A DNA stretch of 64,000 nucleotides from contig CAJHZI010000649.1 of assembly GCA_905160935.1 (NCBI GenBank), positions 3,228,001-3,292,000 of the forward strand, read 5' to 3'. This DNA comes from Enchytraeus crypticus (lineage: Eukaryota > Annelida > Clitellata > Enchytraeida > Enchytraeidae). Both the position numbers and the translations under genes were made by a program. The notes below the pieces were generated by a model, which worked only from the letters and a program-made list of their open reading frames with translations, searched no databases and was not told the origin of the DNA. Positions 2,713 to 17,253 of the stretch are shown in pieces (position 1 is the stretch's first letter; every line of letters begins with the position of its first letter).

Positions 2713-2718
2713 GTTAAT
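2713..2718. repeat. Polinton target site duplication, left copy
   Basis: GTTAAT sits next to the left end AGTATCAGGG and is repeated at 17248-17253 after the right end. Six base pairs is the length made by Polinton/Maverick integrases. Confidence 0.92.
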
Positions 2719-3015
2719 AGTATCAGGGAATGTACTGTCCCCGGACCACCTACGCCCCCAGTGACCTCATTTCATTTCATTCGGGGGTCTCACTTCATTC
2801 GCCCCCTCATTAAATTCATTCGACCACTGAGTTCATAGGTAATCCAGGAACAGTACATTCCCTGATACTCTCATAATAACAAGCAAACATATATACATAT
2901 ATATATATATAGCAGGCACATAAAAATAATATTTATAATTGTCATTATCACTCTTTAATACGAAGTCAAGTTATGTGAAGTATATATAACAATTCATTCG
3001 GTTTTCTAAACTAGG
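2719..3015 (+). repeat. Polinton left terminal inverted repeat (297 bp)
   Basis: It matches the reverse complement of 16951-17247 except at two positions (TACGAAGTCAAG here, TACTAAGTCATG there). The outer 151 bp is itself an imperfect palindrome: AGTATCAGGGAATGTACTGT at 2719-2738 is answered by its exact complement at 2850-2869, with three TTCATTCG units between. The inner part is AT-rich with a short TA run. Confidence 0.97.
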
Positions 3016-3058
3016 ATAAATAATTTAAATTCTTTTTATATATAATTCTACCTAATAA

Positions 3059-3451
3059 ATGTCGAGTACTAAAGTGAAATGCGAATGTGGTTATTCAGTT
3101 AATGAAAACAACATGAATAAGCATATCGATTCTAAATCTCATAAAATTAAAATTGAAAGAAAACAGCGCAAAGAAAATGATTACAATAATCTCAAGGATT
3201 CATGCAACTGTTGTTCAATCTGCTTTGCTACATCCATAAACGAATATTACTATTTGAAAGATAAACAAATGTGCTTGTGCTGTGATGAAATTTCTAGAGG
3301 TGGAGTGAAAAGATGTAAAGAGTGTAAAGAACTAGTTGATATTAACAAAATGGAAAGGCCTTATTTAAAAAAGTGTAAAGAGTGCGCTTCAAAACGTATG
3401 GCTGGTATTAGAAATTCAAATTCAATTGTTCAGGAAAATTCTTTTATATAA
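3059..3451 (+). CDS. Polinton zinc-finger protein, unknown function
   Basis: A 130-residue protein, first gene inside the left inverted repeat. Near the N-terminus (residues 9-29) is a degenerate C2H2-like finger: CECG followed by a helix with H and a final SKSH. The middle and C-terminal parts hold at least four CxxC pairs (CSIC, CLCC, CKEC, CKEC), consistent with two zinc ribbons. The ATG is in the context CCTAATAAATG, the start motif shared across the element. PolB follows after 15 bp. Position and zinc content would suit an early regulator or DNA-binding accessory protein, but no family was recognised. Confidence 0.8.
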   Translation: MSSTKVKCECGYSVNENNMNKHIDSKSHKIKIERKQRKENDYNNLKDSCNCCSICFATSINEYYYLKDKQMCLCCDEISRGGVKRCKECKELVDINKMERPYLKKCKECASKRMAGIRNSNSIVQENSFI

Positions 3452-3466
3452 TCTTTTAATTAATAA
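3452..3466 (+). promoter_or_regulatory. 15-bp intergenic start element ending in TAATAA
   Basis: Example of the spacer type used between Polinton genes: a T-rich half followed by TAATAA directly before the ATG. Spacers of the same 15-bp length lie at 8492-8506, 8801-8815, 10117-10131 and 12964-12978. Spacers at 11350-11355 and 15473-15478 consist only of TAATAA. The layout resembles a poxvirus late promoter (T-rich run, then TAAATG). It also contains AATAAA, which could end the upstream transcript. Confidence 0.5.
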
Positions 3467-5095
3467 ATGGAGAGTACTCTGAGTAATGATTATGATGATT
3501 TCATTAACCTTGATTCTAAATATAGATCTCTACTGAGAGATAGCAAGACGTTAAATAAGAGAATTAAACGTGACAAGAAAGAGCTTAAACAAGCCCTGAA
3601 GAAATATGAGGAACTTGAGAGAAAGTCCTTAATTGAACAACAAGAAATTAAAAAGAAATATAAACATTTAAGATATTCTAGTAAATTAGATAAGAAGAAA
3701 ATCAAACATGAAAGATATATTAGAAAGCATGGTGTAATTGAAGAAGCATTGGATAGTAATATAACCAAAATTATGTTTACTAATAAAAACGAGAAATTAG
3801 CTGATATACAGAACAGAGCTACACGTGGAATGATATTAGCACTCCAAAATAAATTAAGAAAATTTAAATCAGTAAAATTTCAAATGACAGTGGAAGCATT
3901 GCTATTTAAACCAAAGTATAATATTACAATTAACTATCGTTTTTTCAATAAGAATATAATTATAAATGCTAACGAAATGAATAATTTACGCGGTTTAATT
4001 AAAGAACAGTTCACAGAAATTGAAAATAGGGTTGAAGCATTAAATGTAGAAGATAGTGAATCTGTGCTTCAAAACTATGAGGAGATTGAAATAACGATCA
4101 CCAAAAATACACATATGCAAGGATCTTCCTATATTATATTACCAAAGTATATTAAGCATAAAATGGCAGTTATAAATGTTAAAAATACAGATCAATATTG
4201 TTTTATTTGGGCTATATTATCTGCTCTTTACCCAGCAAGTGATCATTCAGATAGAGTAGCAAAATATAGACCATATTGGAATACATTAAATGTAGCTGGT
4301 TTAAACTTTCCAATGCAAATAAAAGATATACATAAATTCGAACAAATGAATAACATTTCAATAAATGTATTTGGATATGAAACAGAACGTAATACAGAAG
4401 ATGATACAAACGAATACTTCTATCCTCTATATAACACGAAAATAAATTCAGAAAGAGTTGTTGATTTATTATATATAGAGAGTGAAAATGTAGACCAAAA
4501 CCATAAAAAGCAATATCATTACGCTTGGATTAAGGATTTTAAAAGGCTAGTTCATAGAGCATTAAATTCAAAGGATAATTATGTTGCTATCTGTAAAAGA
4601 TGTATGATTGGTTATACAAATCAAAGTGCATACGACAAACATCTCTTCTACTGTACAACTGGAAATCCACAATGTATAATGCCAACTGTAGAAAATAAGA
4701 CATTAAAATTTAAGAACCATTCAAATAAATTTAGACATCACTTAGCAATTTATGGAGATTTCGAATCGGTTATAGAGAAAGGACCGAAAAAACATATTGC
4801 ATCGTCAGATGCATATTGTAGCGTTGGAGCTATTAATAGATTTGTTTTATTTCATAATGTGGATGACTTTGTTGAATCAATTGAACAAATAGTTCGAGAA
4901 TATCATTGTATGCTTCAAAAATATCCAGAACCAGTTTTGACAAATAGCGAAAAAAGAATTTACTATAAAACCAAAACATGTTGGTTATGTAATAAACCTT
5001 TTGATGAGGCCATAGCAATATCACGTAATGGAAACATTTGGAATCCAAACAAAAAAGTACGAGATCATGATCATCTAACTGGAAAATTTCTATGA
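3467..5095 (+). pseudogene. Protein-primed DNA polymerase B, N-terminal half (ends at in-frame TGA)
   Basis: First 542 codons of the Polinton replicative polymerase. Residues 15-90 are a Lys/Glu-rich coiled coil. Around residues 235-355 is an OTU-like cysteine-protease-type region: DQYCFIWAI with Cys245 and a later HYAWIK with His351, laid out like an OTU Cys/His pair. A C2H2-like finger spans about 376-396. The exonuclease motif I YGDFES starts at residue 429 with Asp431 and Glu433 as metal ligands. The frame stops at TGA 5093-5095 just after a conserved RDHDHLTGK segment, and the same frame stays open to 7273. This looks like one nonsense mutation in an otherwise intact gene of about 1,270 codons. 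The start ATG lies in TAATAAATGG, 15 bp after the previous gene. Confidence 0.93.
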
Positions 5096-7273
5096 GCTGC
5101 TCATGCAACTTGTAATTTTAAAAGAAAATCAAATACGTTTATACCAATTTTCTTCCATAATTTAAGCAATTACGATGCACATCATGTGGTACATTTACTG
5201 AATAAGTTCGGTAAGGGAGAGCTCAAATTAATACCTAATACCGAAGAAAAATATATTTCATTCTCAAAAATGTATAAAATAGGCAAAACAGATTATGAAC
5301 TGAGATTTCTAGATTCCTACAGATTTATTCCAGAATCATTGGATGAACTTTCATCAAATCTTCTGAAGAAAGATAAAATGCTATTTAAAAATCTTCTTAA
5401 ATTCACAACTAAAGAAGAACAAGATGTGATATTTTGGAATGAAATTATTGATGTTGAAAAAACAGCAGCAATTGTTGATAGTGAATTTAATGTAAAGTTC
5501 AAGAAATTTAAGAAATCTGAAAATAAACCAAGAATTAAAGGAATATACCCTTATTCATTCACAGACTCCTTCGAGAAGTTTAAACATAATCAGTTAATTT
5601 CAAGAGAAGAGTTCTATGATGAATTAAACTTAAAAGACATATCAGATCAAGAATATAATCAATATTTAAAAGTTTGGAATTCAATTGATGATGTTAATCT
5701 CGGTAAATATTCAGATCTATATTTAAAAATTGATGTGTTAGCGCTAGCTGATGTGTTTGAAGAATTTAGAAATAATTGTTTAAAATCGTATGATTTAGAT
5801 CCATGTTATTATTATACATCTCCAGGTTTAACATTTGATTCATGTTTAAAATATACTAATATTAATCTAGAATTACTAACTGACTACAGAATGCTTCAAA
5901 TGATTGAACATGGAATTAGAGGAGGAATTAGCGGTGTTACAGGTGACAGATATGTAAATGTTGAAGGTAAAAACTATACAACTAATCCAAATATTAAAGA
6001 AAGCGACCCAAATCAAGAATGGTTGCTTTATATTGATTGCAATAATTTATATGGAGATTCAATGAGTCAAAAGTTACCACATTCAGATTTTAAATGGTTA
6101 GATAACGAAGAATTGCTAAATTTAGATTCACAAATACGCAATAACAAAATTACAGGAGATGAAGAAATGGGATATATACTATCAGTGGAACTAAAAACTC
6201 CTAAAACAAGTAATTTTGAAAACTATCCTTTAGCTCCAGAAACAAAGAAAATAAGTAAAGATGCTCTTTCGGAATATTCTAAAAAGCAGCTAAAGAAAGA
6301 ATCATATATTGAAACTGAAAAATTAATTTTAGATTTTACAGATAAAACAAAATACACAATTCATATTAAAACATTGCTACTGTATTACAAATTAGGTACT
6401 GAATTTAAAATTAATGAGGCAATATCATTCAAACAATCCGATTGGCTTAAGAAATACATAGACTTCAATACAGAATTACGGAAAAAAGCTACTAATGATT
6501 TCGAGAAGAACTTTTATAAATTAATGAATAATGCTATGTTTGGAAAAACTATGGAAGCTATAAGAAACAGAATTGATATAAAATTATGCGATAATTGGGA
6601 TCAAGCAAAATATTATATAAAGAAACCAACATATAACTATTTAAAAATATTCAATAGAGATCTAGTTGCAATACACATGAGGAAACATAAAATTGTATTT
6701 AATAAACCAATATATATTGGATTCTGTGTATTGGAATTATCCAAACATCTCATGTATGACTTTTGCTATAATAAACTACAACAAATATTTAAAGATGTAA
6801 AGCTTACATACACAGATACGGATTCATTTGTGTTGCACATTAAGGATTCAAATATATATAGAATAATGAAAGAGAATGACGATTTATTCGACTTTTCAGA
6901 TTATCCTAAAGACCATATTCTATATTCTGATAAAAATAAAAAGGTAGTTGGTAAGTTTAAAGATGAATGTAATGGAAATATTATGATAGAAAGGATCCAT
7001 TTAAGATCCAAAATGTATTCACATAGAATATTTAGAGAAGAGATAGAAGAAAAGAAAGCTAAAGGTATTAAAACATGTGTAGTTAAAAAGAATATAACCT
7101 TTGATGATTATTATAAATGTCTATTCAATGGTATAAACACAAAACATAAATTTCAAACTTTTAAAAGTATTAATCACGTTATATATACAAGAGATATCGA
7201 GAAAGTCGGTCTATCATCGTTTGATTCTAAAAGATATTATCTAAATGCAGTTGAATCTATTCCGTTTCACTAA
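5096..7273 (+). pseudogene. Protein-primed DNA polymerase B, C-terminal half (exonuclease and polymerase core)
   Basis: Continuation of the polymerase frame after the TGA; no ATG is suitably placed to start it alone, so it is not an independent gene. FFHNLSNYDAH (about 5150-5180) is exonuclease motif II. YSDLYLKIDVLALADVF (about 5708-5760) is the third exonuclease region. Palm motif A is YIDCNNLYG near 6030, motif B is FYKLMNNAMFGKT near 6510-6550, and motif C is YTDTDS near 6809-6826, with the two metal-binding aspartates. A lysine-rich thumb follows. These are the DNA_pol_B_2 signatures of protein-primed enzymes in Polintons, adenoviruses and linear plasmids. The stop codon overlaps the stop of the convergent lectin-like gene. 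Confidence 0.93.
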
Positions 7274-7515
7274 TCACCAATAGCTATCCAATGACATTGA
7301 TCTCCAGGTTTATAATGACCTTCTACAAAGTATTGAAAACCATCTTTTGTAATATTACACGTGTTAATATGCAGAGCCCAATCCCGACCATATTGAGCTG
7401 ATCTCACTAACTGACAAATAACAACTGGAGGTTCTGTAAATTTATGAGGTGTAAACCCAGATCCACCACTAAATCTTGAACCAAGTATATTTTGCTTTCC
7501 AAACTCTACTTTCAT
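7270..7515 (-). CDS. H-type-lectin-like small protein
   Basis: An 81-residue protein on the minus strand between PolB and the ATPase, overlapping the PolB stop tail to tail by 3 bp. The pattern FTEPPVVICQLV, then LHINTCNITKDGFQYFV, then QCHWIAIG at the C-terminus resembles the H-type lectin fold: a PxV strand, an N-I-T-x-x-GF strand and a terminal W-x-A-x-G strand. Its size matches one such domain of about 70 residues. There is no signal peptide. The ATG sits in TATTAAATG, the element's start motif, which argues for a real gene. In a capsid-coding element a lectin would suit attachment to cell-surface sugars; that role is inference. Confidence 0.6.
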   Translation of the reverse strand: MKVEFGKQNILGSRFSGGSGFTPHKFTEPPVVICQLVRSAQYGRDWALHINTCNITKDGFQYFVEGHYKPGDQCHWIAIGD

Positions 7516-7567
7516 TTAATAGGGAAATATTTATTGAAATAATTTTATATGGAGTTTATACTGATAA
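7516..7567. promoter_or_regulatory. Divergent intergenic region between lectin-like and ATPase genes
   Basis: 52 bp separate the two divergent ATGs. The leftward start is TATTAAATG (minus strand) and the rightward start is TGATAAATGG. Both strands therefore carry the TAAATG element, and the sequence between is almost pure A/T. Confidence 0.45.
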
Positions 7568-8491
7568 ATGGAAGCGAAGTATTATTGGATATCGAAGAAG
7601 AGTAAGAAGCATTCCAATATATTTCCGGAGTCATTCCGATGCTTAATAATCGGTCAATCGGGTTCCGGAAAAACGGCTTTACTTATGCGGATGCTACTTC
7701 AGGAATATATGTTAGATTACAATAAGCTATATGTATTTGGAAGATCCCTCCATCAACCGGAATATCAAATACTAAAAGCTGGCTTTGATAATAAATTACC
7801 TAAGTCTGATATAACAGAAATCCTAATGCATAATTCTATGATTAATGAACACGATGAAAAGCCGGAAGTTATAGCGGCAGGACTTGCGCAAGAATTAGAA
7901 GATGAGGAGAAAGGAGATATATCTTGTGAATATTATGAAGATCCATCCGACATTCCTGATCCTAAAGAGTTTGATAAACATGACAAGAATCTAATAATAT
8001 TTGACGATATTATGACAGATAAGAATCAATCGGCACCTGGTGCATTCTTTACCAGAAGTAGGCATAACAATATCGACTGCATATACATTTCTCAAAATTA
8101 CTATCATTTACCTAGACATACTATTAGATCAAATTCTAATTTCCTAATATTATTCAATCTAGATCCCACAGACACTGATCATTTATATAGAGATTCTGGA
8201 GCAAGCGTTGATTTTAAAGACATTAATAAATTTAGACAGTTGTATGAACAAGCATGGTCGAAGAAATATGGATATTTAGTTATAGATAAATCAAAAACAA
8301 ATATCAATGAAAAATATAGATTTCAATTAGAACTTGAAGAACCCGTACAGTTAGTTGAAAATATAATATCACAACCTATAGATAGAATACGTAGAGCTAC
8401 AAAAACTTGTACATCTTGCAACCTAACAATGTTAAGCTCTAGTCATGCCAAACATATCAAATCGAAGCGTCATGAAAAAGCTTTCATATAA
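7568..8491 (+). CDS. FtsK/HerA-type genome-packaging ATPase
   Basis: A 307-residue ATPase of the A32-like family that pumps DNA into capsids. Walker A is GQSGSGKT at residues 29-36. Walker B is NLIIFDDIM with Asp146-Asp147. FFTRSRHNNIDCIYISQNYY is the following sensor strand with the conserved Gln, and RSNSNFLILFNL follows as in other Polinton ATPases. The C-terminal 25 residues add a finger CTSCN...HAKHIKSKRH that resembles the finger in the first gene of the element (3059-3451). The start is TGATAAATGG. The Walker motifs are intact, so the gene looks functional. Confidence 0.95.
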   Translation: MEAKYYWISKKSKKHSNIFPESFRCLIIGQSGSGKTALLMRMLLQEYMLDYNKLYVFGRSLHQPEYQILKAGFDNKLPKSDITEILMHNSMINEHDEKPEVIAAGLAQELEDEEKGDISCEYYEDPSDIPDPKEFDKHDKNLIIFDDIMTDKNQSAPGAFFTRSRHNNIDCIYISQNYYHLPRHTIRSNSNFLILFNLDPTDTDHLYRDSGASVDFKDINKFRQLYEQAWSKKYGYLVIDKSKTNINEKYRFQLELEEPVQLVENIISQPIDRIRRATKTCTSCNLTMLSSSHAKHIKSKRHEKAFI

Positions 8492-8506
8492 TCTTTCAGC
8501 TAATAA

Positions 8507-8800
8507 ATGGACGCACAACTTCTGAAGCTTGCCGATTTACAAATTGATCAATCTTATTTTGTGGTCGGATATAAACCGATAAAAAATACTAAATTTGGAA
8601 ATACTTATATTATCAGATGTACACACATGCTTAACAATGAAGAATTTGAAATGTTTGCCACTAAACTAATAGCTTCATATATTTCTCTAAATTCCCCAAA
8701 AAATAAATTTTTATTCACCGTTAGAAAAAATTCTAAATACACATACGCTGAGATTTCTGGATATATTCCAAACTGCTCATCTTATATTCAATTGAATTAA
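8507..8800 (+). CDS. Small Polinton protein, possible OB-fold DNA-binding protein
   Basis: A 97-residue protein starting in TAATAAATGG, 15 bp after the ATPase. It is mostly predicted beta-strand: a start LADLQIDQSYFVVGYK, then a TKFGNTYIIRC strand pair, then a C-terminal YAEISGY strand. A 'Y-x-V...TKFG' layout is typical of a small protein family seen in Polintons and some insect viruses, which may be an OB fold binding single-stranded DNA. That assignment comes from pattern and neighbourhood only, next to the packaging and replication genes. There are no cysteine pairs or membrane segments. Confidence 0.75.
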   Translation: MDAQLLKLADLQIDQSYFVVGYKPIKNTKFGNTYIIRCTHMLNNEEFEMFATKLIASYISLNSPKNKFLFTVRKNSKYTYAEISGYIPNCSSYIQLN

Positions 8801-8815
8801 TTTTCATTCCACTAA

Positions 8816-9364
8816 ATGGAAATATATTGTCTTAAATGTAAAAGTAAGACTTTAACTTTAGACTTAATTGAATCCATAACTAAAAATAATAAACCAATAC
8901 TTAAAGGTATATGTGAAGTTTGTGGATCTAAAAAGAATAGATTTATATCAAAGTCTAAAACTGGAGGTGATATCGTTTCATCTGTAATTTCTAAAATACC
9001 TAATGAATTTCATTTAAGAACCCTGAAGGGTAAAAAATATTCGTTCTGTGGTCCCAATACAAAGCTAGAAGAAAGATTAAATCCTGATGATACACCAAAA
9101 GAATGGTCAAAGCCTATAAATAAAGTTGATGAAGTTTGTTTAAAACATGATTTAGCTTATAGAGAATCTGATTTAGGAAAGGGAACTAGGCGTGAAGCAG
9201 ATAAGAAGATGTTACAAGAACTTGATAATCTTAAAGATTTGAATTTTAATGAAAAATTAGGTAAAGCAGTTATTAAGCCAATTATAGCTGCAAAATATAA
9301 ATTAGGTTTAGGAACATTAAAAAAAACAAAATCGAAGAAGCCAAAGAATTACACAAACCCATAA
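8816..9364 (+). CDS. Phospholipase A2-domain virion protein with zinc ribbon
   Basis: A 182-residue protein. Residues 5-36 form a zinc ribbon (CLKC...CEVC). Residues 75-125 are a parvovirus-VP1-type phospholipase A2 domain: YSFCGPNT is the calcium-binding loop, and DEVCLKHDLAY has the catalytic His111-Asp112. A basic tail follows. In parvoviruses this domain cuts lipids so the particle can leave the endosome; the same role in a Polinton particle is inference. The 3' end overlaps the integrase frame by 64 bp, and the A-run at 9319-9326 lies in the overlap. The start is CCACTAAATGG. Confidence 0.9.
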   Translation: MEIYCLKCKSKTLTLDLIESITKNNKPILKGICEVCGSKKNRFISKSKTGGDIVSSVISKIPNEFHLRTLKGKKYSFCGPNTKLEERLNPDDTPKEWSKPINKVDEVCLKHDLAYRESDLGKGTRREADKKMLQELDNLKDLNFNEKLGKAVIKPIIAAKYKLGLGTLKKTKSKKPKNYTNP

Positions 9365-10116
9365 TAAAGAAATTTAAACGAAGAAAAGTTATAGTGTATA
9401 ATATAGATGATATATGGTCAGCAGATTTAGTTGATATGAGACAATACGCAAAGCAAAATAAAGGATTCAATTACATTCTCACTGTAATAGATGTATTCTC
9501 TAAATTTGGTTGGGCAATACCGATAAAAGTTAAGACAGGTAAACAAATGATTGAATTATTCCAACAATTATTCAAAGAAAGAAAACCTAAAAAATTATGG
9601 ACTGATGCAGGAAAGGAATTTATTAACAAAGAATTTAAGAAATTCTTAACTGATAATGAAATAGAGTTATATCAAACGTTCAATGAAGGTAAGGCTGTTG
9701 TTATTGAAAGATTTAATAGAACTATTAAAGAAAAGATGTGGAGATATTTTACTGAAACAGGAAGTAATAAATATTTAGATGCTTTACCTAAACTGATTCA
9801 TGAATATAATAATACAATTCATTCTACAATTAAAATGACTCCAACTGAAGGATCAAAGTTGGAAAATGAACACAAGATTAGTTATATACCACAACCTACT
9901 AAAGAGAAACCAAAATTTAAAATAGGTGATAGAGTTAGAATTTATAAATATAAAAAATTATTTTCAAAAGGTTACGAAACAAATTGGACTGAAGAAATAT
10001 TTACTGTATCTCAAATTATCAAAACATCTCCTATAACATATAAAATAAAAGATTTAAACGGAGAAGATATTATCGGATCCTTTTACAAGCAAGAATTGAA
10101 CTTATCATCATTTTAA
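9301..10116 (+). CDS. Polinton integrase (rve/DDE), no AUG of its own before the catalytic core
   Basis: A retroviral-type integrase that inserts the element and makes the 6-bp duplication. Catalytic residues are the Asp codon at 9424 (WSADLVD), the Asp codon at 9604 (TDAGKEF) and the Glu codon at 9706 (VVIERFNRT). An SH3-like C-terminal domain follows (GDRVRI...KGYETNWTEEIF...GSFYKQEL); no chromodomain was found. The frame is open from 9301 after a TAA at 9298-9300, but the first ATG lies downstream of the first catalytic Asp. The usual N-terminal region of about 60 residues is missing. Translation could come by -1 frameshifting from the PLA2 gene at 9319-9325, or the N-terminus was lost and the gene is dead. 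Confidence 0.88.
   Translation: MRFRNIKKNKIEEAKELHKPIIKKFKRRKVIVYNIDDIWSADLVDMRQYAKQNKGFNYILTVIDVFSKFGWAIPIKVKTGKQMIELFQQLFKERKPKKLWTDAGKEFINKEFKKFLTDNEIELYQTFNEGKAVVIERFNRTIKEKMWRYFTETGSNKYLDALPKLIHEYNNTIHSTIKMTPTEGSKLENEHKISYIPQPTKEKPKFKIGDRVRIYKYKKLFSKGYETNWTEEIFTVSQIIKTSPITYKIKDLNGEDIIGSFYKQELNLSSF
9319..9325 (+). promoter_or_regulatory. Possible -1 ribosomal slip site (A AAA AAA)
   Basis: In the PLA2 frame the run reads TTA AAA AAA ACA, so A AAA AAA is a perfect X XXY YYZ heptamer. A -1 slip moves ribosomes into the open integrase frame. No strong downstream hairpin is evident in this AT-rich stretch, and an A-run is also a hotspot for indels. Confidence 0.3.
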
Positions 10117-10131
10117 AAATATAGTTAATAA

Positions 10132-11349
10132 ATGAGTTCATTAGTAAGGTTTAAAGAAGAGTTGATGAATGGAGAAAATCAAGAATTGCTTAAGAAGGTA
10201 TCTACTCAAAATAGAAAATTAAGGAAAAGATTTGATGATGAAGTTATTGCTAAACAAAATGTACAAACAGAGCTAAAAGAAATCTACAAACCTATTACAG
10301 ATACACAACAGTTAACTATCAGTAAGCAGATTACAAGAACGGATGATTTGTTTCAACAATTGTTAACAGATTTACAAGGTAAGCATGATAGATCATCACG
10401 TTTACTTGCAGATATTATTAGAGGTCTAGTGAGATGTAAGGAAGAAACTAGACAACAAGGTTTAGATATTATCAGCTCAATAGCTAAACAACCATTATTA
10501 GCAGAATTAATTAACAAATTAAATAACTATCCAGAATTAGTTAAGAAAATTATGCATCCTGATGGTATACAGAATCTTAATGAAAAAGACAGGAAAACAC
10601 TAGAGCCTTTAAATCATCTCAATGACGATGATCTAAGAACACTCGTACAATATTATGGGTTACAAGAAAAGATTAAAGCCACAGAATATCAGGAGGAAGT
10701 TGTACAATTACCTACTTACACAGATTCTGTATTTCAGGAAAGTCCAAGTGATAATAAAATGTATAAAGAAGTAATGGTTAGTTTAATGAAAAGAAATCCT
10801 GGAATAAATAATAAAGGTAAATATGGAATCGTAACTGTTTCACCTATCTTTTATTACGAGGAAAATGATCCTGATACTGTAAAATTTGGTAAATACAATG
10901 TTCTATTCAAAGATAACAAAATTAAAATTGCAGATAAAGAATATATTCTTACACAAGGTTTAGAGTTATTGTTGAATAGAGTTAATCCTAATTTAGATGA
11001 AAGAATATTAGATACAGATTTGAATAATTATTTAACAATATGCATTGATTCGGGATTAGATTACAGGCACAATCAAACAATAGGTAAAAAGTTACATAGC
11101 GTGCTTACAAAACTAAATAGATTGAATGAATTGGATAAAGGTGTTCAAGTGATTGGTAATGGACTAAATACAATAATTCTATCGGATAATGTAGATACAT
11201 TAAAAGAAAGATTAAATCTATTGATTGGGGAATATTCAGCAGGAAATAAAAGTATGTTTAATGAAATTAATGCTATTTTAGATATTTTATTCAATAAAGG
11301 AATAATAACTAAGAAACAACCAAGAAACATTATACGCAAAATTAAATAA
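10132..11349 (+). CDS. Conserved Polinton protein, probable structural role (405 aa)
   Basis: The protein starts in TAATAAATG, 15 bp after the integrase. Residues 1-75 and 85-130 are charged helices likely to form coiled coils. The C-terminal two-thirds has KYGIVTVSPIFYYEE, FGKYNVLF and LTQGLELLLNRVNP, then ILDTDLNNYLTICIDSGLDYRHN. This follows the layout of a long uncharacterised protein common in animal Polintons and adintoviruses, placed next to the capsid genes. No enzyme motif is visible. A structural or scaffold role is inferred from position alone. The next gene follows after only TAATAA. Confidence 0.85.
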   Translation: MSSLVRFKEELMNGENQELLKKVSTQNRKLRKRFDDEVIAKQNVQTELKEIYKPITDTQQLTISKQITRTDDLFQQLLTDLQGKHDRSSRLLADIIRGLVRCKEETRQQGLDIISSIAKQPLLAELINKLNNYPELVKKIMHPDGIQNLNEKDRKTLEPLNHLNDDDLRTLVQYYGLQEKIKATEYQEEVVQLPTYTDSVFQESPSDNKMYKEVMVSLMKRNPGINNKGKYGIVTVSPIFYYEENDPDTVKFGKYNVLFKDNKIKIADKEYILTQGLELLLNRVNPNLDERILDTDLNNYLTICIDSGLDYRHNQTIGKKLHSVLTKLNRLNELDKGVQVIGNGLNTIILSDNVDTLKERLNLLIGEYSAGNKSMFNEINAILDILFNKGIITKKQPRNIIRKIK

Positions 11350-11355
11350 TAATAA

Positions 11356-12150
11356 ATGGAACAGAAATTAATTAATTTACTTGAACCCATTTCTGCTTAC
11401 TTTCAGAAAAAGTCTATATCTAAAAATATACTCGTATCATACAATAATTCATCTGAACTTTGTACTATTAAATTTCCTAATCCTATTATTCTTAATGATT
11501 ATGATCTAGAAATTGCACTTGTAAATTTAGAGACCTGGTATAGTTTTGCAAATATTACACTAGCAAATAATAATTTTAAGTATTCAGTTGATGGTGGAAA
11601 TACTTGGAAATTAATAACTATTGAAATTGGAGCATATCAAATTGAAGCAATAAATGATGAGATTCAATGGTTGATGAAACTAAATGGAGATTGGGTTTCT
11701 GTTAGTAATGCTTATTATATAACTTTATTTCCTAATATTTCAACCTTGAAATCGATTATTGATATAACAAATTCACACTATAAAGTTGATTTCACAATAC
11801 CGAACTCACTGAGAAGTATATTAGGTTTTGATGATATAATTTTATCAAAAGGACGTAATGAATCACAATATATTGTTAACATTATCGAGTTTAACAGTAT
11901 ATTTGTTAATTGCGATTGTATAACTGAATCGTTTGTTAACGGAATATCATCTCCAGTTTTATATTCATTTGGACCTAAGGTGCAGCCAGGTTTTAGAATT
12001 GTAGAATCGCCAGTTAATCTTGTTTATTTACCTTTGAACAGGAAAACATTGAGTGAATTTAGTATTTGGATAACAGATCAAGATGGAAGACCTATAGATT
12101 TTAGAGGAGAGAATATTACATGTAGATTTCATATTAGAAGCGTAAAATAA
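11356..12150 (+). CDS. Minor capsid (penton-type) protein
   Basis: A 264-residue protein with the pattern of the Polinton penton, a single jelly roll that closes the capsid vertices. Family-like segments in order are IALVNLETWYSFANI, IEIGAYQIEAINDEIQ, IPNSLRSILGFDD, the central INCDCITESFVNG stretch followed by LYSFGPKVQPG, and finally ITDQDGRPIDFRGENITCRFHI. Length is normal for the family and no breaks are seen. The start TAATAAATGG directly abuts the upstream stop region (6-bp spacer). It ends 5 bp before the stop of the convergent cysteine-rich gene. Confidence 0.9.
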   Translation: MEQKLINLLEPISAYFQKKSISKNILVSYNNSSELCTIKFPNPIILNDYDLEIALVNLETWYSFANITLANNNFKYSVDGGNTWKLITIEIGAYQIEAINDEIQWLMKLNGDWVSVSNAYYITLFPNISTLKSIIDITNSHYKVDFTIPNSLRSILGFDDIILSKGRNESQYIVNIIEFNSIFVNCDCITESFVNGISSPVLYSFGPKVQPGFRIVESPVNLVYLPLNRKTLSEFSIWITDQDGRPIDFRGENITCRFHIRSVK

Positions 12151-12155
12151 AGTTA

Positions 12156-12593
12156 TTACTCATCATCATCATCATCACTATCAGAATGCACAAAATTACA
12201 GAGATCTTCACCATACCCCTCTCTCAAATTCTCACAAATGCTAAAGAAAGAATTAAATTCTTTCGCGGCGAATATAAACTTTTTGCAAATTTTGCAACTA
12301 ATACTGGAATAATAACATTCTTCACCTATGCTACAATTATTACACCTCATGCAATTGCACTCTAGTATTTCATTGCAGTAGAGACATCTATATTTTTCTA
12401 TATTTTCTATATTTTGTAATTTAGACATTATAATATCATTATCTGAATAAAAACCGTAGATAAGAATTAAAGTGTCTAGTGTAAGTTCATTGAAGTCAAA
12501 TATTTTTTCTAACATAAATGTTAAATACCAATCTTCTGTCTGATTCATAATAGCTTCTCTCAGAGCTTGTTCCTTGAGCTTTAAGGCTTCCAT
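12156..12593 (-). CDS. Cysteine-rich acidic-tailed protein, unknown function
   Basis: A 145-residue protein on the opposite strand to the capsid genes. The N-terminal 55 residues are helical. Residues 70-105 carry a dense cysteine cluster (CLYC, CNC, CNNC, CKIC), suggesting a RING-like or double zinc-ribbon module. The C-terminus is a run of Asp/Ser ending DSDDDDDE. The ATG is in TAATAAATGG on the minus strand, which supports a real gene. A regulatory or host-interaction role fits its reversed orientation, but no family was recognised. Confidence 0.75.
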   Translation of the reverse strand: MEALKLKEQALREAIMNQTEDWYLTFMLEKIFDFNELTLDTLILIYGFYSDNDIIMSKLQNIENIEKYRCLYCNEILECNCMRCNNCSIGEECYYSSISCKICKKFIFAAKEFNSFFSICENLREGYGEDLCNFVHSDSDDDDDE

Positions 12594-12660
12594 TTATTAT
12601 GTAGGTTTGTTTATAAAAGAAAAACATATAATACAAATATTCTAATTAATACCTTATTAA
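12594..12660. promoter_or_regulatory. Divergent intergenic region, cysteine-rich gene / small virion gene
   Basis: 67 bp of A/T-rich DNA between two divergent ATGs, each in the TAAATG context (TAATAAATGG leftward, TATTAAATGG rightward). With 7516-7567 it is one of two divergent switch points in the element. Confidence 0.45.
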
Positions 12661-12963
12661 ATGGGTCTCAAGCTAAAGAGAAAAGAAAGTAGAAAAATAA
12701 TATGCGGAAAGGGTTATTGTCATTGTAGAAATAGAGGATATGTAAGTGGTAAAGGTTTTTTAGATATTTTAAAAAAAGTTTTACCAGGTGTTACAGAAAG
12801 CATTATTGAGTCTGCACCAGAAGTAATAGGAATAAATCCTAAGATTGCTGATTCAACAAAAGCAATTGTTCAAGAGATAAGGAATAAAAGAAAACCAGAA
12901 TTGCAAAATATTGTTGATAGAATTAATCAATTTAAAATTGGAACTGGATTTGCTTACGTTTAG
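12661..12963 (+). CDS. Small basic virion-type protein (pVI/pX-like)
   Basis: A 100-residue protein just before the major capsid gene. The first 30 residues are very basic with CGKGYCHC. RGYVSGKG at about residue 31 resembles an adenain cleavage site of the type xXGX|G. It is followed by a short amphipathic helix GFLDILKKVLPG, much like the membrane-lytic helix freed from adenovirus pVI. The rest is helical. The basic part could bind DNA and the helix could act on membranes after maturation; this is inferred from layout, not from similarity to a named protein. Confidence 0.7.
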   Translation: MGLKLKRKESRKIICGKGYCHCRNRGYVSGKGFLDILKKVLPGVTESIIESAPEVIGINPKIADSTKAIVQEIRNKRKPELQNIVDRINQFKIGTGFAYV

Positions 12964-12978
12964 TTTTTTCATTAATAA

Positions 12979-14373
12979 ATGGAGAAAGTAAAGGAGTCTT
13001 ATCTGGAGCTTGAAAAATCTTTTAATTATGATGAATCTGTAGAAAAGTTTCAATATAGAGTTTATGATCCATCTCAAGGAACTGCACTTAATGCAAATGG
13101 ACAAGAAATTAGAATTCAAATTTTAAGTGAAGATATCTGGTCATTACCTTGTAAGAGTTTTCTTTACATTGAAGGACAATTACAAGATTCTACAACTAAT
13201 CAACCTTATGCTGCAAATAGTTTAGTAGCATTACAAAATAATGCTATGATGTATCTCTTTAGCGAAGCAAGATATCATATAGGAGATCATGAAGTTGAGA
13301 GATTTCAATATCCAGGTCATACTACAACAATAGATGCATTATTGACTAAAAGTAATAGTTTCAATGGAATGGATCAATGTTGGAGTTTAGATTCTGGTAA
13401 TGGAACACCTCAGACTTTAAGTGAAATTGTGAATTTAGTAGCAGGAGATATTCCAGGAAATACTGCTGCTAATATATTAACAGCTTTACAAACAACTGTT
13501 ACTAGATTAACAGAAGGACTGATCAATCAAAATAAGGGATTTGAAGAAAGAAGAAATTATACATCTACAGCAGGAGGATCATTTGCATTCAAAATTTCTT
13601 TAGAATTTATATTTAATTTCTGTAAACAATATAGAAAGATTATTTATGGATGTAAGCATTCAATTGTTTTTCCTAGACAAACTGATACTCAGGCAATAAT
13701 ACGAAATGGTGGAGTTGCTAATGCAGGTAGAGTAAACTTAACTAAAATACAATGGCATATACCAGTAGTTACAGTAAGTTTAGAAGAAAGAGGTATTTTA
13801 AATGATTACATTAAGGAGAAAGAATCGTTTCCATTATGTTTTATGAATAAGAAATCTGAGAACACTATTGTTCCCCAAGCTACTGAATTTGCTTGGAGAT
13901 TATCTATAGCTTCAGGTATCGAAAAACCTAGGTATATCGTTGTAGGCTTTCAATCTCCAGCAGCTAATCAAGCAGAAACTAATTATGCTATATTCAATGC
14001 TAATGTGCAAGTAATTAATGCTTATGTTGAATTGAATAGTGAAAGATATCCAAGCAATGATTATATAACTAATTATGACAGTAATCAGTATGCTCAATTT
14101 TATAATTCTTTTAAAGAATTTAAGAAAAGTTATTCTGAAGATGAAGAAGAGAATGATTGTATATCGTATCAAGCTTTTAAGAAGTTGTTTAGGTTATACG
14201 TATTTGATGTATCGAAACAGTCTGAGAGACTTAAAAATACTGTTGTAGATATCAGAGTAACATTTAAGTTTGGTGCAAATGCTCCCGCAAATACTACAGC
14301 TTATGCAGTTGTATATCATGATAGAAAGTGGTCGATAGAATCAGATGGTAGTAAGCAATATATCAGATATTAG
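12979..14373 (+). CDS. Major capsid protein (double jelly roll)
   Basis: A 464-residue protein matching the Polinton major capsid family. Typical segments are FQYRVYDPSQGTALNANGQ near the start, the ILSEDIWSLPCKSFLYIEG strand, NNAMMYLFSEARYHIGDHEVE, NKGFEERRNY, and the linker to the second barrel with KIQWHIPVVTVSLEERG. The C-terminal barrel ends in TAYAVVYHDRKWSIESDGSKQ. Six such barrels arranged as trimers make pseudo-hexameric capsomers. Length is normal and the frame is unbroken. The start is TAATAAATGG, 15 bp after the previous gene. With penton, protease and ATPase it completes a capsid-making set. Confidence 0.95.
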   Translation: MEKVKESYLELEKSFNYDESVEKFQYRVYDPSQGTALNANGQEIRIQILSEDIWSLPCKSFLYIEGQLQDSTTNQPYAANSLVALQNNAMMYLFSEARYHIGDHEVERFQYPGHTTTIDALLTKSNSFNGMDQCWSLDSGNGTPQTLSEIVNLVAGDIPGNTAANILTALQTTVTRLTEGLINQNKGFEERRNYTSTAGGSFAFKISLEFIFNFCKQYRKIIYGCKHSIVFPRQTDTQAIIRNGGVANAGRVNLTKIQWHIPVVTVSLEERGILNDYIKEKESFPLCFMNKKSENTIVPQATEFAWRLSIASGIEKPRYIVVGFQSPAANQAETNYAIFNANVQVINAYVELNSERYPSNDYITNYDSNQYAQFYNSFKEFKKSYSEDEEENDCISYQAFKKLFRLYVFDVSKQSERLKNTVVDIRVTFKFGANAPANTTAYAVVYHDRKWSIESDGSKQYIRY

Positions 14374-14390
14374 AATTTTTGGCTAAATAA

Positions 14391-14675
14391 ATGACATTAA
14401 CTAAAAGCCAGATAGAAAAAATTGCTACTGCTATTGCTATTGCGATAATTCAGGAATTGCATAAGTATAAAGTTGGTGGACTTTTACCACTAGCAACTCT
14501 AATTCCTATTATTGCTGCTGCTTTGGGAGGAGTAAGTACAGTTGCAGGAACTGTTGCATCAAGAGTTCAACAAAGTCAAGCTGATAAAGAAACTGCAAGA
14601 CATAATAGAGCGCTTGAGGATCAATTAAAGAAGACTGGAACAGGTAGATCAAAGGGAAAAGGGTTAAGATTATAA
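14391..14675 (+). CDS. Small hydrophobic virion protein (pX-like, membrane-active)
   Basis: A 94-residue protein after the capsid gene. A Gly-Gly step (KVGGLLPLATLIPIIAAALGG) opens a hydrophobic segment of about 25 residues. Then comes a polar helix KETARHNRALEDQLKK and a basic Gly-rich tail with GTGRSKGKG. The order GG, PL-x-PI hydrophobic core, RHN helix, basic glycine tail is characteristic of a small protein conserved in animal Polintons and adintoviruses. The tail and the GG step look like adenain-type processing points. A role in membrane penetration or core packing is inferred. The start is AAATAAATG. Confidence 0.8.
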   Translation: MTLTKSQIEKIATAIAIAIIQELHKYKVGGLLPLATLIPIIAAALGGVSTVAGTVASRVQQSQADKETARHNRALEDQLKKTGTGRSKGKGLRL

Positions 14676-14682
14676 CCACTAA

Positions 14683-15084
14683 ATGGATAGTATTCCTGAT
14701 AGGGCTCTTAGTAATATTGAAATTGAGAATTATTCAAAAATGTTAAAAATTAAAAGTTTTAGGGGTTGCTATATGAGAGATGAATTGAAGAAATTAAAAT
14801 CTTGTAAAGTTGAGTGTGGAATATTAAATTTAAATTTATCTAGTGAAAGTGGTAGTCATTGGACTTGTTGGTTTAAAACGAATAATGAAAAATATTACTT
14901 TAACAGTTTTGGTTTACCTCCACCAAAAGAAGTAATTGAGTATTTAGGATCACCTATTTTATACTCTACATTTCAATTGCAAGGATTGATGGATCAGAAT
15001 TGCGGTAAATGGTGTCTGATTGTACTAAAACGTTTAAGTGAAGGGTCTGATTATAAAGATTTAATTTTATCTTTAGTTAAATAG
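14683..15084 (+). CDS. Adenain-like maturation cysteine protease
   Basis: A 133-residue protease of the adenovirus/Ulp1 fold. The catalytic set is His59 (GSHWTCW), Asn74 in FNSFG at the place of the acidic residue, Gln100 and Cys107 (QNCGKWC). The Gln lies seven residues before the Cys, as in adenain. It is shorter than adenain (about 200 residues), as is usual for Polinton proteases. It should cut the capsid-associated small proteins during maturation. The start is CCACTAAATGG, 7 bp after the previous stop. The next gene begins 1 bp after its stop. Confidence 0.9.
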   Translation: MDSIPDRALSNIEIENYSKMLKIKSFRGCYMRDELKKLKSCKVECGILNLNLSSESGSHWTCWFKTNNEKYYFNSFGLPPPKEVIEYLGSPILYSTFQLQGLMDQNCGKWCLIVLKRLSEGSDYKDLILSLVK

Positions 15085-15085
15085 A

Positions 15086-15472
15086 ATGACGAATAACTTA
15101 AAACAATTTTTGAGTGATAAGCTAGAAGATTGTGAAGCTAAAATCAAAAGTTTGAAAAGAAAGAGAAAAATAGTTCAAGTAGCATATGGTATAACAATAG
15201 TTACATCAATAACTGTTTCAACAGTAACAACTACAATATCTGGAGTATTTGCATTGCCATTACTTCCTACAGTAATCATTACTACATTATCAGCTGTTGG
15301 AGCCTTATCAACAGCTATATCAACTAAATTTAATCTCAAAAGTAGGAAAGCAGAACTAAATAATATGATATCTAGGTTAGATAGATTGAAACAACAAATG
15401 AATTATGTGATTAAGTGTAATGGAGATTTAACAGAAAAAGAATCAAATGATATCATTAAAGAATTTTTATAG
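15086..15472 (+). CDS. Two-helix membrane protein with coiled coils
   Basis: A 128-residue protein. A basic coiled coil (residues 1-30) precedes two hydrophobic segments at about 35-55 and 57-75, rich in Thr, Ser and Val and separated by ALPLLP. A second coiled coil (about 82-115) follows. This topology recurs next to the protease in other Polintons. It starts one base after the protease stop, in the context ATAGAATG, the only gene of the cluster without TAAATG, so it may be translated from the protease message by termination-reinitiation. A minor virion or membrane-remodelling role is conjecture. Confidence 0.75.
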   Translation: MTNNLKQFLSDKLEDCEAKIKSLKRKRKIVQVAYGITIVTSITVSTVTTTISGVFALPLLPTVIITTLSAVGALSTAISTKFNLKSRKAELNNMISRLDRLKQQMNYVIKCNGDLTEKESNDIIKEFL

Positions 15473-15478
15473 TAATAA

Positions 15479-16351
15479 ATGAATACTGTAGATCTATTTG
15501 GTAGACAAACTAAAAAGCTAGAATCTAATTTAAAACTGTTGTCATATGGAGGACTTAGTTCTAAAAACGATTCACTATCGGTAAAGCTAGATCCTAATAT
15601 CAATAATATGCTAAGCCTATCTGCTAATGGTTTAATGGCTAATGGCCTTAAATTAACGGAGGGAGGTGAATTAGATATGAAAAATAATAAACTGATAAAT
15701 GTTAAAAACCCCATAGATAGTCAAGACTGTGCTACGAAGGATTATGTAGATGCACAGGTTGGATTGAAGTTGAACAAAACGGGTGATGGAAAACTTGATA
15801 TGAATTTTAATAGTATATCAAATATTCAATTTCCTGATAATAGTCTTGATGTAATTAATAAACTTTATTTAAAAGTTACAAGGAAACCTCACGAGATAAG
15901 TTTAGAAAATTTGGTGAAAATTGCAAATGTTGTATCTGTAATAATAGATAGAAATCCACATCTTCAGAAATACACCGCATATTTTAACAGAATGTATACA
16001 TTAGTTGTCAGCCTATCTGCTGTTCTTAATGAAGTTTATGAAGGAAAGGATGTTGTTAATGAATTTGAATATTTTACACATATAAAAGACTTACAAGTTG
16101 TTATAATTAGAGTCATTGAAGAACTATTTGAGGATGAGTTTATTGATTTAAAGAGAAATCTTATGAAAGAAAATCTAGTTTTTACACCAGAGAAAGGAAC
16201 TCTTCGTAGGAGATACAGGAAATTTGTAAACAGTATAAGTCCTAAGATAAAGAATACCAATATGAAAGAAATATTGATTCAAAAGAACTTATTACTTATC
16301 GATTTAGGATTTATATATTTGAGTGAAGAATTATTAGCACAGCTTGTATAA
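15479..16351 (+). CDS. Fibre-like (shaft and YVD motif) candidate attachment protein
   Basis: A 290-residue protein, last gene before the right inverted repeat. Residues about 33-62 alternate LSVKLDP, LSLSANGL and ANGLKL, like the triple-beta-spiral shaft repeats of adenovirus fibres. LDMKNNKLINVKNP followed by DCATKDYVD (about 63-95) is the motif common in trimeric phage tail fibres. A second weaker unit (KLDMNFNSISNIQFP...INKLYL) follows at about 103-130. From about residue 135 to the end it is helical and basic with no recognised fold. N-terminal anchor, shaft and distal domain suggest a receptor-binding spike, inferred from architecture. The start is TAATAAATG with a 6-bp spacer. Confidence 0.8.
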   Translation: MNTVDLFGRQTKKLESNLKLLSYGGLSSKNDSLSVKLDPNINNMLSLSANGLMANGLKLTEGGELDMKNNKLINVKNPIDSQDCATKDYVDAQVGLKLNKTGDGKLDMNFNSISNIQFPDNSLDVINKLYLKVTRKPHEISLENLVKIANVVSVIIDRNPHLQKYTAYFNRMYTLVVSLSAVLNEVYEGKDVVNEFEYFTHIKDLQVVIIRVIEELFEDEFIDLKRNLMKENLVFTPEKGTLRRRYRKFVNSISPKIKNTNMKEILIQKNLLLIDLGFIYLSEELLAQLV

Positions 16352-16950
16352 GCATAGCAACTTATGTCTCAAAGTTCCGGTAACGTTAATTTATACTGCA
16401 AGCTGGGATTGCTTCTGTAACTAATCTCTGCAGTTTCCAACCAATTCTCCGCGGTGCATATTGAGAGCTTAACACACTAAACGATGTAAAGCAGATGCTG
16501 TAAATTTGCAAAGGTTGAGTGCAATATTTCGCATTCCGTAGTCTAGGTACCTAGAATAGGGAATGTATGGAATGCAGATAATCATAGAACATATCCATAA
16601 TAATTGTTGTACAGGAGTAATCAGATTTTACATACAATAATGAACTTATTATAATATAATCATATAATCTTATATGTTTTAATTTCATGAGCCTTAAAAC
16701 TTTTTAAACATATATATAAGTTTTCTAGTACTGAAGAGTGATGAACATTTATAAATATTATTTGCATGTTATTATTTTGAATATCGTTGAATTGGCTTAC
16801 TTGTAAAATGGCTGAATGAGGTCATTGAGTACAGAGGTGGTCCAGGAACAATTTAGGATATGAAAGTGATCACGTATTGATATACATATCTTTGCATGCT
16901 ATTATGGAAGTAACATATAATGTACTTTCTTTAGAAGGTTTATGTGTAGG
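16352..16950. other. Non-coding Polinton tail with a decayed extra inverted-repeat copy
   Basis: No gene was found between the fibre-like gene and the right inverted repeat. Segment 16724-16862 aligns to the repeat: GAAGAGTGAT, TTATAAATATTATTT and TTATTAT lie in the same order, then AATGAGGTCA and GGTGGTCCAGGAACA match the outer palindrome with gaps. It reads as an old, diverged copy of the terminus lying just inside the current one. Confidence 0.65.
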
Positions 16951-17247
16951 CCTAGTTTAGAAAACCGAATGAATTGTTATATATACTTCACATAACATGA
17001 CTTAGTATTAAAGAGTGATAATGACAATTATAAATATTATTTTTATGTGCCTGCTATATATATATATATGTATATATGTTTGCTTGTTATTATGAGAGTA
17101 TCAGGGAATGTACTGTTCCTGGATTACCTATGAACTCAGTGGTCGAATGAATTTAATGAGGGGGCGAATGAAGTGAGACCCCCGAATGAAATGAAATGAG
17201 GTCACTGGGGGCGTAGGTGGTCCGGGGACAGTACATTCCCTGATACT
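16951..17247 (-). repeat. Polinton right terminal inverted repeat (297 bp)
   Basis: Inverted copy of 2719-3015 with two substitutions. It contains the same internal palindrome: AGTATCAGGGAATGTACTGT at 17097-17116 and its complement at 17228-17247. It ends ...CCCTGATACT, followed by the duplication GTTAAT. Confidence 0.97.
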
Positions 17248-17253
17248 GTTAAT
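17248..17253. repeat. Polinton target site duplication, right copy
   Basis: GTTAAT, identical to 2713-2718. Confidence 0.92.

Follow-up and report, generated by a model that had tools for sequence, protein, structure and literature searches.

At 14 of the 15 gene starts of a Polinton contained in a 64,000-nucleotide (nt) stretch of the genome of the annelid Enchytraeus crypticus (hereafter the window), on both strands, the initiation codon is embedded in the sequence TAAATG. I propose, with slightly better than even confidence, that these starts are promoters of the poxvirus-late type and, as a prediction, that a co-infecting poxvirus-like DNA virus supplies the RNA polymerase and late factors that read them, in place of host RNA polymerase II. 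The observations behind this proposal are the motif itself, its conservation at specific positions, its recurrence in a second family of Polintons and its mismatch with host start contexts; from these I infer promoter activity and the site of transcription initiation, while the helper virus is predicted by analogy. Animal Polintons have no RNA polymerase of their own with which to express their genes. The element itself (2719..17247) is a Polinton: its ends read AGTATC...GATACT, its inverted-repeat arms are 302 nt each and 99% complementary, it is flanked by a 6-bp target duplication, and it encodes an integrase (PF00665, rve), an A32 ATPase (PF04665) and a double-jelly-roll capsid protein (PF21738), all scoring over the Pfam cut-offs. 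The genome searched around the window comprises 524 Mb in 802 contigs, designated below by C and a number (e.g., C554); the capsid, promoter and copy comparisons were all made within this one host genome.

All starts were read from the sequence. Eight of them display TAATAAATG (3059, 3467, 8507, 10132, 11356, 12593 minus, 12979 and 15479), and the other TAAATG starts read TGATAAATG (7568), AAATAAATG (14391), TATTAAATG (12661 and 7515 minus) or CACTAAATG (8816 and 14683). An earlier sequence-only reading of the window had reported this count and had singled out 15086 as the sole deviating start. Both statements hold, yet the 15086 start, TAAATAGAATG, carries TAAAT three bases upstream of its ATG, so that TAAAT begins at most 12 nt from the ATG at all 15 starts. 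Two open reading frames (ORFs) are not among the 15: that at 5270, which encodes the C-terminal part of the polymerase, and the integrase ORF at 9436, left out because its frame stays open as far upstream as 9301, within the preceding ORF. With both included, the count is 14 of 17. The same reading had assumed that chance would produce three such fixed bases at only a few percent of starts, and the background agrees with this: on both strands of the element, TAA precedes 24 of the 538 other ATGs (4.5%; Fisher P = 5.7e-17). To the right of the element, it precedes 57 of 1738 ATGs in the window. Among non-Polinton ORFs of at least 180 amino acids (aa), taken from the right part of the window and from stretches of six other loci, TAA precedes the ATG in 1/20, one further row with only 2 nt of upstream sequence having been dropped.

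The signal extends beyond these three bases. The 21 TAAATG starts of two families (14 from the window family, hereafter family A, and 7 from the second, family B) were compared with 44 internal, non-start TAAATG sites of the same elements at six positions, with P values uncorrected. T occupies position -13, ten bases before TAAAT, at 15 of the 21 starts (10/14 in family A, 5/7 in family B) against 13 of the 44 internal sites (P 0.0017), and position -12 at 15/21 against 17/44. Over positions -16 to -9, the mean T count is 4.0 of 8 at starts and 2.5 of 8 at internal sites (P 2e-4). The contrast is sharpest for A at -5 (19/21 starts, 8/44 internal sites; P 2.6e-8). A is also enriched at -17 (16/21 versus 17/44), to which I give less weight because this base partly belongs to the stop codon of the preceding gene in five pairs of genes lying 15 nt apart. 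In vaccinia, late promoters are described as carrying TAAAT, usually with a G after it, across the initiation codon, and a conserved T ten bases farther upstream, set among weaker Ts (PMC11980589). Counted from TAAAT, this T would fall at -13, the position at which T is found in most of the Polinton starts. The family A table was known before this description was consulted, and the family B count at -13 was made afterwards. The claim that the motif often follows a T-rich run is thus borne out, in the form of a run rich in T whose centre lies some ten bases before TAAAT.

Aligning the regions upstream of starts in related Polintons had been suggested as a check on the motif. In all, 29 gene types were sought in 11 copies, 10 of which yielded upstream regions; starts with more than 3 differing residues in the N-terminal tag, as well as copies added later, are not part of the comparison. 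In the stretches of C171 and C105, no ORF matched a Polinton gene. TAA is kept in 62 of 64 distinct upstream versions, which represent 19 motif-bearing gene types with at least two versions each, while the flanks diverge. Pairing the two most divergent versions of each type showed 0/57 changes at -3 to -1, 2/19 at -13, 2/19 at -14 and 1/19 at -5, against a mean of 0.40 change per site over -45 to -7 (an ungapped figure that small indels raise); these pairs are of related copies, and the two versions lacking TAA fell outside the pairs chosen. Family B is represented by C554:155801-169435, whose capsid protein is 33% identical to that of the window. TAAATG is found at 7 of its 14 starts, including those of the polymerase, capsid and fibre genes (P 7e-7); the protease and the integrase, for which no N-terminal ATG could be set, are not among the 14. 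At 4 of the other 7 starts, TAAAT lies at most 12 nt upstream (P 3e-4). The gene that matches the minor capsid gene reads CCAATAAATG in another, B-type copy, C213, and TAAATACAAATG in C554. The signal is therefore not tied to the codon, and a signal able to slide relative to the ATG behaves as expected of a transcription initiator, not of a translation context. The suggestion that the genes share a promoter grammar with a poxvirus-late core is thus upheld as far as sequence goes, by TAAAT, by the T-rich stretch, by their retention in diverged copies and by the second family.

Gene packing bears on how such a promoter would work. The distance to the preceding gene is at most 17 nt at 10 of the 15 starts, which leaves no space for a conventional upstream promoter and leader; a promoter serving these ten starts has to extend into the preceding gene, and its message can have hardly any leader. 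Five pairs of neighbours are separated by exactly 15 nt (3451/3467, 8491/8507, 8800/8816, 10116/10132 and 12963/12979), which places both genes in one frame and puts the stop codon of the upstream gene at positions -18 to -16 of the promoter. In the mechanism that I propose, every one of these closely spaced genes would be served by a short promoter of its own, whichever strand the gene lies on, and ten of these promoters would overlap the end of the preceding gene. Transcription would begin at the start codon, in the A residues of TAAAT, and slippage of the polymerase would probably add a short 5' poly(A) leader. Such slippage after initiation on a run of As produces short poly(A) leaders in vaccinia and in yeast linear plasmids (PMC6211774). 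The integrated copies would remain nearly silent until a poxvirus-like virus infects the cell, in the manner of mavirus with CroV.

The unusual RNA polymerase proposed in the sequence-only reading is plausible, but it would have to be borrowed from elsewhere, since none was recognised in the element: a Pfam scan of 17 ORFs or ORF pieces of the window, and of ORFs of family B and related copies, gave no RNA polymerase match. Virophages are thought to use the polymerase of their giant virus, with which they have late promoter and termination signals in common (PMC6428243), and by analogy with this precedent the likeliest source would be a poxvirus-like virus of the host. Mavirus and the EMALE virophages resemble the Polinton in being integrated elements, and their gene-start motif, TCTA, is common to the giant virus CroV; other EMALE types carry other gene-start motifs, possibly matching different giant viruses (PMC8547959). 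The Polinton differs from them in its motif, in its animal host and in having a helper that is only predicted. TAAATG is also reported for an entomopoxvirus (PMC3061580). The motif resembles that of poxviruses as a class, not that of one named helper virus, and integration of the helper in the host genome need not be assumed. Poxvirus genes are tightly packed on both strands, as are those of the Polinton. Unlike a poxvirus, however, the Polinton has no recognised polymerase or late factor, and its polymerase and ATPase genes bear the same signal as its capsid genes. The cytoplasmic linear plasmids of yeast are relatives with a protein-primed family B DNA polymerase (PolB). They carry a TAAAN initiator on 12 genes, add 5' poly(A) by slippage and have stem-loops at 3' ends (PMC6211774); unlike the Polinton, in which no RNA polymerase was recognised, they possess their own RNA polymerase, and they have a UCS promoter box. 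Vertebrate Mavericks share with the present element the capsid, ATPase and integrase set, the 6-bp duplication and AGT-type ends, whereas the available portion of the source mentions no gene-start motif (PMC8097293). No TAAATG gene-start motif was found described for a Polinton in the open-access literature searched, as far as its accessible text extends.

Four other explanations of the motif were weighed. That it merely reflects base composition, biased ORF calling or copies of one duplicated spacer hardly deserves credence. The DNA is AT-rich and a 25-nt spacer similarity (D3) does occur in three copies, but the background in the same DNA is only 4.5%, the flanks of different genes are unlike one another, as are those of diverged orthologues, and the upstream conservation comparison contradicts this idea as well. 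The sequence-only reading had also raised the possibility that AATAAA, present at 9 of the 15 starts, is the polyadenylation signal of the upstream gene. Of 11 genes that precede a same-strand start, 8 indeed have AATAAA or ATTAAA no more than 60 nt from the stop (one of these cases overlaps its own stop codon), but none of the 5 genes without an adjacent same-strand start does. AATAAA also precedes 3059 and 12593 minus, which have no same-strand gene close upstream. Conversely, TAAATG is kept at 8816 and 14683 although ACTAAA, which is not known as a standard polyadenylation signal, stands there. AATAAA therefore tracks gene starts and not gene ends, and a polyadenylation role is very improbable. 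More substantial, though still improbable, is the idea of a translational signal, in which in-frame stops before the start (TAA-TAA-ATG) would prevent read-through, or would link termination to re-initiation where messages are polycistronic. A second in-frame stop occupies -6 to -4 in 14 of the 21 TAAATG starts (counted by eye), and five 15-nt gaps and two 6-nt gaps hold neighbours in one frame. However, TAAATG is present at all 5 starts without a same-strand gene ending within 200 nt upstream, TAAAT can be displaced by as much as 12 nt upstream in family B, and translation offers no obvious reason for positions -13 and -14 to change so little. T at -3 also contradicts the rule followed by the host. 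In a set of six host starts (H3, H2A, H2B and H4 from a core-histone cluster, a Dr1-like gene and a Maf-type (bZIP) gene, all named by eye), a purine occupies -3 in 6/6 and TAA is found in 0/6, whereas T occupies -3 in 14 of the 15 Polinton starts (Fisher 1.3e-4); the Kozak-type context of the host was thus discarded as an account of these starts. A trans-splice acceptor was likewise discarded, no AG being seen by eye directly before the Polinton ATGs.

The remaining explanation is an element-specific nuclear promoter or initiator at which host RNA polymerase II would start, at TAAATG and without any helper. I regard this as unlikely, but as an idea with real weight: the element is integrated in the nuclear genome, it has spread recently in its host (see below), and the position-specific evidence for a promoter serves it equally. 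A weak excess of TATAWA at -26 to -19 in family A (3/15, P 0.03; 0/14 in family B) also speaks for it. At -40 to -26, where RNA polymerase II would be expected to need it, the TATA box shows no excess (family A 2/15, shuffle mean 1.3; family B 1/14, mean 0.9), and the 5 genes without an adjacent same-strand start, none of which has AATAAA or ATTAAA up to 60 nt from its stop, speak against it as well. No animal core promoter is known to correspond to TAAATG. The TATAWA excess is also one of several observations that weigh against the helper-read, poxvirus-late promoter that I favour. T at -13 is absent in 6 of the 21 TAAATG starts, and A at -5 is an addition to the vaccinia late promoter as described in PMC11980589. 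TAA has been lost in two copies (the ATPase gene of C722 and the 100-aa gene of C453), and TAAATG is missing from half of the starts in family B. A cytoplasmic polymerase cannot directly reach nuclear copies, so that reactivation would need a further step. The promoter evidence comes entirely from one host genome, and no related DNA was found in IMG/VR or INPHARED, where near relatives of the window genome may be absent. Finally, a search of the host genome for the poxvirus late factor Pox_VLTF3 (PF04947) gave 0 matches, a weak negative since the control genomes gave none either.

The capsid gene has at least 93 matches in the genome, that of the window included, of which 58 cover the full 464 positions uninterrupted by a stop, at 95-100% identity, indicating a recent burst of spread in the host. 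The protein database further contains 14 proteins with 80-98% identity along the entire capsid, of which 13 come from listed contigs of 1.9-13.3 kb, so that close relatives exist, some perhaps elsewhere. A broader hypothesis, which I advance tentatively and would not be surprised to see fail, is that the Polinton lives as a virophage-like satellite of a poxvirus-like virus still to be discovered; its genes would be kept under the late promoter of that virus, and its dozens of copies would form a reservoir active only in infected cells. A 2014 commentary argued that Mavericks would have given up their dependence on helper promoters once integrated; from their spread through animals it concluded that virophages and large DNA viruses still await discovery in these hosts (PMC4096385). 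Here, the gene starts of a recently spread Polinton still resemble a poxvirus late promoter. Helper dependence in an animal thereby becomes directly testable, and the group of viruses to be sought is named: were the helper reading true, TANTAAATG would be expected at the late genes of the helper virus itself.

Coordinates in the window of the target-site duplications and of the 15 Polinton gene starts
Feature	Position	Strand	Basis
Target-site duplication GTTAAT, left	2713..2718		read directly
TAATAAATG start, Cys-rich 130-aa ORF	3053..3061	+	ORF list, sequence reading
TAATAAATG start, DNA polymerase ORF, one in-frame stop, ends 5095	3461..3469	+	sequence reading
TATTAAATG start, 81-aa H-type-lectin-like ORF	7513..7521	-	H_lectin E 7e-4, below curated cut-off
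TGATAAATG start, A32-type packaging ATPase	7562..7570	+	PF04665
TAATAAATG start, 97-aa ORF	8501..8509	+	sequence reading
CACTAAATG start, DUF5679 + phospholipase-A2-like ORF	8810..8818	+	Pfam
TAATAAATG start, 405-aa ORF	10126..10134	+	sequence reading
TAATAAATG start, 264-aa ORF	11350..11358	+	sequence reading
TAATAAATG start, 145-aa Cys-rich ORF	12591..12599	-	sequence reading
TATTAAATG start, 100-aa ORF, head-to-head with 145-aa Cys-rich ORF	12655..12663	+	sequence reading
TAATAAATG start, major capsid, double jelly roll	12973..12981	+	PF21738 E 9.7e-50
AAATAAATG start, adenovirus pX-like ORF	14385..14393	+	E 6e-4, below curated cut-off
CACTAAATG start, protease candidate, named by eye	14677..14685	+	sequence reading
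TAAATAGAATG, single deviating start (15086)	15078..15088	+	sequence reading
TAATAAATG start, fibre-like ORF	15473..15481	+	T7 tail-fibre N-terminal match E 1e-4, below curated cut-off
Target-site duplication GTTAAT, right	17248..17253		read directly

Several genes of the element call for comment. The polymerase gene of the window copy is split by its in-frame stop into two pieces (3467-5095 and 5270-7273), neither of which gives a Pfam PolB match; the C-terminal piece aligns at 24-26% identity to polymerase ORFs of other copies, one of which matches PF03175 at 3e-46. The 264-aa ORF starting at 11356 is presumably a minor capsid candidate, as judged from gene order. The Pfam scan of the protease candidate at 14683 returned no credible match, and neither did a comparison with the PDB of four ORFs of no assigned identity and of the C-terminal part of the polymerase. 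A resemblance of the 145-aa ORF to gp120 chains in the PDB (E 0.003 and worse) was taken as a chance match between Cys-rich sequences. The small H-type-lectin-like gene (7270-7515 minus) sits between the polymerase and ATPase genes. In the copy on C722 (L020:2615-4285), extra ORFs without credible Pfam identity lie between the ATPase and 97-aa genes, and two of them, of 119 and 139 aa, start with TAAATG. Modules seem to be exchanged between copies, as the same capsid module is found beside different polymerases, either of the window type (3467-7273) or encoded by open frames of about 1120-1420 aa (C318, C643, C453 and C184).

In family B (C554:155801-169435, C440, C323 and C456), short palindromic spacers precede different genes in different copies; the one following the 405-type gene, for example, has a z score of -4.8. 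These spacers look interchangeable, and some may serve as 3'-end hairpins of the kind found in virophages and yeast plasmids. In the window family, no strong 3' hairpin was found in the windows after 16 gene ends (lowest z -2.1). The ORF encoding the DUF5679/phospholipase-like protein overlaps the frame of the integrase, in which an N-terminal ATG is lacking (window 9301-9364). This overlap was examined in six copies (window 9301-9364, L023:5885-5948, L014:3423-3474, L012 on the minus strand, L016:649-664 and L027:7981-8003). The integrase is in the -1 frame in all of them but L027, and the slippery register reads A AAA AAC in three copies and A AAA AAA in each of the remaining three. The DUF5679/phospholipase-like protein and the integrase are likely fused by a programmed -1 frameshift, and this holds for both families.

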